Assembly: GCA_028874315.1 (NCBI GenBank)
Contig: JAPPKM010000090.1
Coordinates: forward strand, 1-58,097
From: Chloroflexota bacterium
GTDB lineage: Bacteria > Chloroflexota > UBA11872
DNA: 58,097 nucleotides
Direction of reading: 5' to 3'
How positions within the stretch are numbered: the first letter of the stretch is position 1; every line of letters begins with the position of its first letter. The notes beneath the pieces are model-generated. The model did no database searches and was not told the origin of the DNA. It was given only the letters and a program-made list of their open reading frames with translations. This document shows positions 14,062 to 17,118 of the stretch, piece by piece. The position numbers were made by a program, and so were the translations under genes.

Positions 14062-14403
14062 ATGAACCGCCGGAACCGTCTCCGCCGGGCTGGCGATATC
14101 GCACGCGTACGTTCGCGTGGCGCCAAGGCTGTGACGCGTTCGATCGTGGTGTTCGCAATGCCGGGTGCCTCTGCGGCGCCTCGGGTTGCGGTGCCAGTCT
14201 CGAAGCGATTCGGATCGGCCGTGCGGCGCAACCGGCTGCGCCGGCGAGTGCGGGAGGCGTTGCGCTGTCAGCTTGCTGAACTGCCCAGCGCATTGGACAT
14301 CGTGGCCCTGCCACGAGCACGGGCCGTGTACTCGTCCTCAGACGAACTGGCCGACGCGGTACGGCGTGGACTGCGCCAATCTCAGGCTCGGCTGGCCGAA
14401 TGA
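14062..14403 (+). CDS. rnpA: Ribonuclease P protein component
   Basis: Protein cofactor of RNase P, which trims the 5' leader of pre-tRNA. It has 113 residues. The family signature is the basic helix [18 protein letters not shown], preceded by VAVPVSKRF. The N-terminal [15 protein letters not shown] matches the usual start of RnpA. The stop overlaps the yidD start as ATGA (14400-14403). Confidence 0.96.
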
Positions 14404-14609
14404 CGCCCACGGCACTCTGGTTGATTCGCGTCTACCAGCGCTGGGTGTCTCCGGCATTCGGGTCGGTGTGCCGGTACGAGCCGGCCTGTTCGCAGTACGC
14501 GCACGAGGCGATCGAGCGGTATGGGGTCCTGCGTGGAGCCGCGATGTCCGTGCGGCGGCTTGCACGCTGTCATCCCTGGCACGCGGGAGGCTACGACCCC
14601 GTCCCGTAG
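14400..14609 (+). CDS. yidD: Membrane protein insertion efficiency factor YidD
   Basis: Small amphipathic inner-membrane-associated protein, 69 residues, which assists YidC-dependent insertion. The signature is complete: [26 protein letters not shown] and [13 protein letters not shown]. It is translationally coupled to rnpA and lies 15 bases before yidC, the usual arrangement. Confidence 0.96.
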
Positions 14610-14624
14610 GGATGCGGCCGACCA

Positions 14625-16241
14625 ATGGAAGCTATCCCCAACACCTGGCAGACGTGGGCCGTCGACCCGCTGAGCGACGCGTTGACGCTGATTCACGACG
14701 CGGTGGGCAGCTACGCGATTGCGATCGTGCTGTTCACGGTCCTGATCCGGCTGCTGATGATTCCGCTGACGCTGAAGCAGATCACGTCGCAGCGCAAGAT
14801 GCAGTTGATTCAGCCGGAACTGGAAAATATTCGTAAGCGCTTCAAGGGGGACCGGCAGGCGGTCTCGGAAGCGACGATGAAGCTCTACAAGGAACGCGGC
14901 GTCAACCCAATGGCGGGGTGCCTGCCGATCTTCATCCAGCTGCCGGTCCTTCTAGCCCTGTACGGGGGGATCCTGACGCTCAGCAGTCGTGGCCTGCTGA
15001 ATGAGCAGTTCCTGTGGTTCAACCTGGCGCGGGAGGACTCGACCATTCAGATCGTCGGGGACGCCGCCCCCACCGAGCCCGTGGACGTGGTGATTGCCAC
15101 CACGGAACTGCCGACACCCTTGGAGTCCTCGCTGGCCGTTTCGTTCACACAGTTCGCGGCCAACTACCAGTTCCGCACGGACGTCGTGGACGCAGAGGCA
15201 GCGATTGCAGCCCTGAGCGACGGCAGCGCCGCGGCGATTTTCCTGGACGACGAGGCAGACCTGAGTCAGATGCCCGCGGGCACGGGTGAAACGCGCCTGG
15301 TGCAGGCGGCGGCGTTCCTGGTGGAACGGGACCGAGCGGCCACGCGGCTGACGGTGGACCAGGTGGAAGGCATTCTGCGCGGAGAGATTGTGAATTGGGC
15401 GGACGTGGACGCGGGAGTCGGGCCGATCGTGTTGCATGGGCTCAAGGACGACTTGAGCGCTCCGGGGCTGCTGGAACGGGTTGTCCTGAATGGCGATCCG
15501 ATTCGAGCACCGATCCGCGAGCACAACAGCGTGGACGACTACTTCAACGCACTACGGGCCGAGCCGGGATCGTTAGGTGTCTCACCACCCATGCGGACGG
15601 ACGACATCCGGATGCTGAACATCGAGTCCCGCGGCGCCGATCGGGCCTATCCGGCCGTGGCGGACGTGCTGGCCGACGGTCGATATGCGCTGGCGCGGAA
15701 TGTGTATGCCTACTGGGGTCCGGCGACGGACTCAACGAAGGCATACCTGCGCGATTGGTGGAACAGCGGCCAGGGGCAGGAAGCGGCCCAGGTGGCGGGC
15801 TTTACCCGGCTACCAGCGAACTTTGACCTGTTTGCGTCGGGCGGGTTCTATATCTCGGTGCTGGCATTGCTGGCCGGGGGGTTCCAGCTGATCCAGGCGC
15901 GGATGATGGCATCGAGCACGGCGACGGGGCAGGCGGCGACAATGAACCGGGTGATGCAGTTCATGCCGATCATCGTGGTGGTGTTTGCCTGGACATTCCA
16001 GGCGGGCTTGGTGGTGTACTGGGTGATTTCCAGCATTATTGCGATCGTTCAGCAATACTTCACCACGGGCACCGGGAGGCTGATTCCCGCCCACTGGCCG
16101 ATCGCGCGCGACGTGATGGGGGAACATCACGCGAAGGTGGAAGCGGCGAAGGCGGAGGCTCAGGAGAAGGAAAGCGAGTCCAAGCCCGCGGCGGCAGCTA
16201 GACCACGCCGCCGACGGCGACGAAGGAGACGCGGTGGCTAA
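14625..16241 (+). CDS. yidC: YidC/Oxa1-family insertase with an inserted PstS-like domain
   Basis: Inserts and folds membrane proteins. It has 538 residues, against roughly 250-330 for Gram-positive-type YidC. Core TM1 is about 30-50 and carries the conserved hydrophilic-groove Arg (R42 in FTVLIRLLMIPL). The cytoplasmic C1 hairpin is 51-98 and TM2 about 99-120. Residues about 141-398 interrupt the core with an extracytoplasmic domain resembling a PstS-type binding protein, including LTVDQVEGILRGEIVNW (242-258). The core resumes with TM3 (about 403-427), TM4 and TM5 (about 443-480). The tail is strongly basic, ending in a run of Arg. Proteobacterial YidC also has a large periplasmic domain, but at a different position (between TM1 and TM2) and of a different fold. 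Confidence 0.93.
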   Translation: MEAIPNTWQTWAVDPLSDALTLIHDAVGSYAIAIVLFTVLIRLLMIPLTLKQITSQRKMQLIQPELENIRKRFKGDRQAVSEATMKLYKERGVNPMAGCLPIFIQLPVLLALYGGILTLSSRGLLNEQFLWFNLAREDSTIQIVGDAAPTEPVDVVIATTELPTPLESSLAVSFTQFAANYQFRTDVVDAEAAIAALSDGSAAAIFLDDEADLSQMPAGTGETRLVQAAAFLVERDRAATRLTVDQVEGILRGEIVNWADVDAGVGPIVLHGLKDDLSAPGLLERVVLNGDPIRAPIREHNSVDDYFNALRAEPGSLGVSPPMRTDDIRMLNIESRGADRAYPAVADVLADGRYALARNVYAYWGPATDSTKAYLRDWWNSGQGQEAAQVAGFTRLPANFDLFASGGFYISVLALLAGGFQLIQARMMASSTATGQAATMNRVMQFMPIIVVVFAWTFQAGLVVYWVISSIIAIVQQYFTTGTGRLIPAHWPIARDVMGEHHAKVEAAKAEAQEKESESKPAAAARPRRRRRRRRRGG

Positions 16242-17118
16242 CAATTCCGGCAATGGCGTGATCGTGACCGGCGGTACGGTTGAGGACGCGGTGAAGCGCG
16301 CGCTCCTGCAACTGAACGTGACGCTGGATGAGATTGACGTGGAGGTGCTGAGTTCAGGGTCGCGCGGGGTGCTGGGCATGGGCCGCGAGGACGCGCGGGT
16401 GCGGGTGACGGTGCGCAGCCGACCGTACTCGGAAGAGGATGACAGCGAGGACGAGGAACCCGAGGAGGTCGTGCCGGAGGCCGAGCCGCCCGAAGCCGAG
16501 GTGCTGGACGAGGAGCCAGCGGCGGAGGATGCCGCAGCGGTTACGGCGGAATCCGAGGCGCCCGCGGCGACCGAGGAAGAGCCAGCGGACGAGCAAGAGC
16601 CCGAGGCCGAGGAAGAGCCGGTGGCGCGCCCGACACGGCGTCCGCGCGGGGAATTGCTGGAGTCCGGCGAGGACCTGGAGAACGAGGCCGAGGATCTGAT
16701 TGAGAGCCTGCTGGACCGCATGGGATTCATGGCGGACTTCGACCTGGTGTCCGAGGATCCCCTGGCCTACAACATCGTGGGCGACGACGACTTCGGACGG
16801 CTGATCGGGCGACAGGGCGAGACGCTGCGCGCGTTCGGGTACCTGGTGAACCTGATGCTGGGGCGCCGGCTGGGCCGGCCGTGCCGGGTGATCGTGGACG
16901 TGAACGGTTACCGGCAGCGGCGCGCGGATCAGCTGGCTGAACTGGCGGAAACTCTGGCCGACGAAGTTCGGGACACGCAGGAGCCGATCACGCTGGAGGC
17001 AATGCCGGCCAACGAGCGGCGGCTGGTGCACGTGGCGCTGGCGGACGACGAGGATGTGCGGACGTACAGCATCGGCGAGGGCGACGAGCGCCGCGTCGTT
17101 ATCAGCCCCAGGGCCTGA
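16234..17118 (+). CDS. khpB: RNA-binding protein KhpB (Jag/EloR family)
   Basis: Cytoplasmic RNA-binding protein linked in other bacteria to cell elongation and to YidC. It has 294 residues: a Jag_N domain (about 1-60, with GSRGVLGMGREDARVRV), a very acidic linker (65-130, mostly Glu, Asp, Ala and Pro), a KH domain (LIGRQGETLRAFGYLVNLML, with the GxxG loop) and a C-terminal R3H domain (ANERRLVHVALADDED). The start is GTG and overlaps the end of yidC by eight bases. The acidic linker faces a very basic YidC tail encoded just upstream. Confidence 0.94.
   Translation: MANNSGNGVIVTGGTVEDAVKRALLQLNVTLDEIDVEVLSSGSRGVLGMGREDARVRVTVRSRPYSEEDDSEDEEPEEVVPEAEPPEAEVLDEEPAAEDAAAVTAESEAPAATEEEPADEQEPEAEEEPVARPTRRPRGELLESGEDLENEAEDLIESLLDRMGFMADFDLVSEDPLAYNIVGDDDFGRLIGRQGETLRAFGYLVNLMLGRRLGRPCRVIVDVNGYRQRRADQLAELAETLADEVRDTQEPITLEAMPANERRLVHVALADDEDVRTYSIGEGDERRVVISPRA

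Follow-up and report, generated by a model that had tools for sequence, protein, structure and literature searches.

A predicted PstS-like domain inside the membrane core of YidC in one family of Chloroflexota

Introduction

Why would a membrane protein insertase carry, in the middle of its core, what looks like a solute-binding protein? YidC belongs to a pair of ancient and nearly universal protein transporters, with a membrane core that is otherwise conservative; its well-known large addition, the P1 domain, precedes that core. In a 58,097-nucleotide stretch of DNA from a Chloroflexota bacterium (contig JAPPKM010000090.1 of assembly GCA_028874315.1, hereafter the window), an unrelated and well-understood binding fold appears to sit mid-core instead. 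An initial reading of the letters and open reading frames (the sequence-only reading) had pointed this out and had added that no YidC of such a form was known to be described; likewise, no description of a YidC with a PstS-like domain in its core was found in the literature that we searched. Both halves of the protein belong to known families, and what appears new is their combination and the site, although the sequences may already be deposited and automatically annotated in protein databases.

Results

The yidC gene (14625-16241; all features given here are on the + strand) encodes a protein of 538 amino acids and lies between genes for the RNase P protein (rnpA, 14062-14403; PF00825) and YidD (14400-14609; PF01809) on one side and jag/khpB (16234-17118; PF14804, PF01424 and PF13083) on the other, the last sharing 8 nt with the end of yidC. 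With the neighbours checked by Pfam, the order rnpA-yidD-yidC-jag is the usual one; rnpA, yidD and jag are common neighbours of yidC in bacteria. The layout of open reading frames around yidC agrees with that in a relative whose genome is a single contig (G002). The YidC families PF02096 (60KD_IMP; 167 bits against a cut-off of 35, E 3.9e-49 for the whole protein) and TIGR03592 (yidC_oxa1_cterm, NCBIfam; 186 bits against 84.3) each match in two separated stretches, both above cut-off for PF02096, with PF12849 between them. By family membership the product is a YidC/Oxa1 insertase, and insertase activity is predicted. The fused gene is the sole YidC in the four genomes checked (G000, G002, G013 and G018).

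The first part of the core (14625-15044, aa 1-140) comprises an N-terminal helix, TM1, the cytoplasmic C1 hairpin, TM2 and the extracytoplasmic segment FLWFNLAREDST. Only about 28 residues precede TM1. Its hydrophilic-groove arginine, R42, does not vary among 19 sequences. The second part (15837-16238, aa 405-538) holds TM3-TM5, the last of them bearing the YW motif, and an arginine-rich C-terminal tail. Hydrophobic segments were seen at aa 32-50, 99-117, 402-428 and 437-464, and TM5 was placed by alignment. The tail closes with a run of about 10 arginines (16194-16238) that is kept in 19/19 members of the family.

To set the junctions, we aligned the protein to sister-family YidC, which lacks the insert, and so placed the whole insert at 15045-15824 (aa 141-400), a segment missing from the sister-family proteins and present in all 19 family members. 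It begins directly after FLWFNLAREDST (aa 129-140) and ends shortly ahead of TM3 (FYISVLALLAG, aa 408 on), the native segments FLWFNLA..D.T and YIS.LA.L.G (the start of TM3) both being retained on either side. The split PF02096 match and the sister-family alignment thus agree with the earlier proposal of a YidC core up to about residue 140, an extra part, and TM3-TM5 from about residue 400. A PstS-like domain almost certainly lies inside the YidC core, between TM2 and TM3. In the consensus nomenclature of the Oxa1 superfamily, the site is the junction of H4 with h4h5, a region that is hypervariable throughout the superfamily and forms a transmembrane hairpin in bacteria (PMC8675477).

The insert had also been predicted to lie outside the cell membrane. 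Consistent with this, the C1 loop has a net charge of +6 and the C-terminal tail of +9, compared to -20 for the TM2-TM3 loop, in which the PBP-like domain is itself strongly acidic (net -16); hydropathy gives the insert no membrane helix. The charge pattern and hydropathy together argue for the outer side of the membrane.

The window is one contig of a draft genome of 206 contigs, which leaves room for an assembly chimera or a gene-fusion artefact. However, a search of related genomes, as proposed in the sequence-only reading, recovered the same architecture in every genome of the family (19/19; 13 from the genus of the window, g1, and 6 from a second genus, g2). The junctions are identical throughout, across two genera, several assembly series and a single-contig chromosome (G002 = OY282448.1, 3,002,743 bases, titled as chromosome). 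The architecture is therefore neither chance nor chimera, and an artefact is scarcely conceivable. It was seen in 0/5 genomes of the sister family and 0/17 of the rest of the class searched. Among 400 Chloroflexota genomes, matches to the insert outside the family were far weaker (at most 61 bits); the best of these were read and proved to be PstS-like proteins that are not part of a YidC, the majority bearing a lipoprotein-type leader. A scan of 84,980 species (one genome per species), with search patterns that detect close relatives only, returned 16 loci, all in Chloroflexota MAGs or assemblies. Several of these isolates are presumably derived from sponge metagenomes, judging by their names. 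No viral relatives were found.

Several lines of evidence tie the insert to the PstS group of type 2 periplasmic binding proteins, the assignment originally made from motifs. The PF12849 (PBP_like_2) match covers aa 147-375 (44.3 bits against a curated cut-off of 27), and the family matches 19/19 members with E values of 0.001 or less, all above cut-off; an HMM search, one of the checks first proposed, therefore gives PF12849 on the insert and PF02096 on its flanks, all above cut-off. A profile built from 15 inserts found PstS chains as its best matches in the PDB (4gd5, E 9.2e-9; 4q8r, 1e-8; 1twy, 1e-7; 9l8j, 6e-7), with eight other PstS-type chains beyond 4gd5 below 1e-4. Alignment by hhalign to seven free-standing Chloroflexota PstS-like proteins gave 98.7% probability; the 232 aligned columns run from the first helix through the C-terminal GF motif. 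NCBIfam has a weak ptsS_2 match on the 538-aa protein. From the PF12849 match, the PDB profile search and hhalign, the domain proper is placed at 15081-15815 (aa ~153-397, ~245 residues), ending in a PstS-type C-terminal GFTRLP. The PstS-type motifs listed at the outset were all found within aa 141-398 (15045-15818), among them the conserved PstS-group motif LTVDQVEGILRGEIVNW (15348-15398, aa 242-258). These comparisons support the insert as a complete PstS-like (PBP_like_2) domain, homologous to type 2 binding proteins.

Structure prediction with a fold search had also been proposed as a check. Foldseek placed PstS on top (E 1.5e-6 with the domain, 8.8e-11 with the full length), but with TM-scores of only about 0.2-0.42, and the two AlphaFold models, computed from a shallow alignment of 15-17 family sequences, are of low confidence (pLDDT about 50-54, with pTM 0.45 where pLDDT is 54). 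With these values the models add little, and the fold assignment rests mainly on sequence and profile homology.

The insert is homologous across its entire length to PstS-type proteins (PF12849; TIGR02136; PDB 4GD5, 4Q8R, 1TWY and 9L8J), sharing LT..Q...I..G.I.NW, Y.LAR..Y.Y and the C-terminal GF..lP. It differs from them in having no signal peptide or lipobox, in lying within an insertase and outside a pst operon, and in the loss of the anion loops. The sequence-only reading had noted that the usual SGT stretch was not obvious, with DDLSAPG instead, and DDLSAPG indeed occupies the PstS SGT position, in a degenerate loop (15438-15467, aa 272-281) that reads GLKDDLSAPG where PstS has SRETNSGTH. 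The GSST, ASR and SGT loops of PstS correspond to ATTE, DDEA and LSA in the insert, a pairing of residues that is less certain in the first lobe than in the second. At the positions where the family's true PstS proteins have GSSTV, DASR or NASR, and DSGTYDYF, the inserts have ATTE, an acidic run, and DDLSAP or, in g2, DIGTR; the free-standing Chloroflexota PstS-like relatives have NKGSDT, NASR and NSGTH. The third loop varies among members (SAP, GAR, GSR or GTR), with IGTR at the SGT position of the g2 inserts retaining the GT.

These data bear on whether the domain could be a membrane-fixed phosphate receptor that serves the Pst transporter or phosphate signalling, as its PstS homology might suggest. 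The PstS phosphate receptor model TIGR02136 scored 20.6-22.8 bits, far under its cut-off of 206.6. The domain is encoded within yidC, in the rnpA-yidD-jag cluster, and not beside pstC/pstA as an exported lipoprotein or soluble receptor. Furthermore, the family members checked have a separate PstS gene about 0.4 kb from pstC, with PstC/PstA. Because the anion loops are lost or eroded and a separate PstS-PstC-PstA cluster is kept, a phosphate-receptor role is very unlikely. In the draft genome of the window itself, 87% complete, no other PF12849 match was found. We considered whether the insert had replaced a lost PstS and rejected this, as relatives carry a separate PstS beside PstC/PstA; its absence from the draft is thus most likely due to incompleteness.

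Purifying selection has kept the insert, with dN/dS of about 0.07-0.13. The median dN/dS in g1 was 0.065 for the insert vs. 0.046 and 0.018 for the two core parts, and in g2 0.13 (median) vs. 0.049 and 0.040. Amino-acid change in g1 was about 3-fold faster in the insert than in the core (dN 0.036 vs. 0.012), and identity between genera is 46% for the insert, compared to 72-85% for the core. All 19 genomes keep the insert at full length, and no indel in it exceeds one residue. An insert tree separates the two genera with moderate support, matching the genome grouping, as expected if the domain had entered before the genera split. The data are most simply explained by a single insertion before the split of the two known genera, followed by fixation. 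Descent from the family's own PstS was unsupported, the insert profile finding short PstS proteins of other Chloroflexota (61 bits) and missing the family's own; the branch of the insert is too long to fix its origin firmly. Recent horizontal acquisition was likewise set aside, composition giving no clear sign of it (GC 66% in the insert vs. 61% in the core; GC3 79% vs. 86%).

Discussion

What might such a domain do for an insertase? The closest known parallel is the proteobacterial YidC with P1 (PDB 3BS6, 3BLC), which likewise has a large extracytoplasmic domain on a YidC core. P1 has a beta-sandwich fold. It lies ahead of the core, between the diderm TM1 and TM2, whereas the insert is not N-terminal to the core helices, falling between core TM2 and TM3, and is a PstS homologue; the claim that both fold and site are unlike P1 is thus upheld. 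The P1 region of E. coli YidC is an interaction site for SecD/SecF and contains a cleft where unfolded chains may bind (PMC7618853).

We tentatively favour, at a little under an even chance, a PBP-derived module outside the membrane that has given up phosphate binding and would serve as a dock or chaperone for clients or a partner protein. In this view a two-lobed domain would stand over the groove of YidC on its outer side, tied at both ends to TM2 and TM3. Devoid of anion ligands, it could offer a fixed docking or holding surface outside the membrane, and this surface might hold emerging extracytoplasmic client segments or a partner such as SecDF, as P1 is thought to. We infer that the insert may bind protein or peptide clients, and a SecD/SecF-type gene pair is present as a candidate partner. 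Some observations count against a docking surface. E. coli YidC tolerates a large P1 deletion (PMC7618853), so extracytoplasmic YidC domains need not be vital; the roughly 3-fold faster change of the insert means that no tightly fixed binding site is visible; and the IGTR remnant in g2 leaves room for some ligand binding.

That same GTR remnant is one of the points in favour of the most interesting alternative, a ligand-driven switch. A non-phosphate small molecule (another anion, an osmolyte or a host-derived metabolite) would close the lobes and, via TM2/TM3, open or shut the insertase. A PBP fold lends itself to use as a closing clamp, here joined to the core at both ends, and its structural core motifs are retained. 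However, none of the three ligand loops of PstS is left unaltered, and the variation in the third would be unusual if a binding site were kept; we regard such a sensor as a possible, minority explanation. More generally, it is rather improbable that insertion is gated or paced by the lobes closing on a ligand or an emerging chain, with mechanical coupling to TM2/TM3. If such a ligand-controlled insertase did exist, it would be the first member of YidC/Oxa1 in which a clamp-like binding-protein domain is built into the core.

The strong acidity of the domain, its confinement to one family and its quick sequence change around a conserved structural core would also fit a tether or spacer that binds nothing soluble and links YidC to some component of the envelope or translocon that is specific to the family. 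No candidate for such a partner was found in a search that covered SecD/SecF, and we consider a tether rather unlikely.

A further alternative is a tolerated passenger: a harmless insertion with no function of its own, in which selection acts on foldability alone. The hypervariability of h4h5, between TM2 and TM5 (PMC8675477), speaks for it, as do the loops of up to about 110 aa found there in other Chloroflexota YidC. The full length in every genome and a dN/dS well below 1 argue against it, though selection for clean folding would lower dN/dS too, and on balance a passenger is unlikely. Whatever its role, an insert fixed across one bacterial family in its only YidC shows how much the TM2-TM3 connection can tolerate, and makes the family a natural testing ground for the purpose of extracytoplasmic domains in YidC.

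The monoderm five-helix type of Bacillus halodurans YidC (PDB 3WO6/3WO7) and SpoIIIJ shares the TM1-TM5 core, the TM1 arginine, the C1 hairpin and the TM5 motif with the window's YidC (43-45% identity to 3wo6/3wo7 over ~120 columns by Foldseek), which has in addition the ~250-residue PBP-like domain between TM2 and TM3. In another Chloroflexota family (L088 of G060 and L089 of G048), the same loop is enlarged to ~90-110 residues, with no PBP similarity detected. The sister family (f2; L085, L086 and L087) has ~30 additional residues in the TM2-TM3 loop, with a conserved cysteine pair; these precede FLWFNL and so occupy another position in the loop than the PBP insert does. Finally, YidC proteins of a further family (f24; L091 and L093) have an apparent lipoprotein-like leader (LVALAVVACAGA and LLVLLVAACAGA), while the window's YidC has none.
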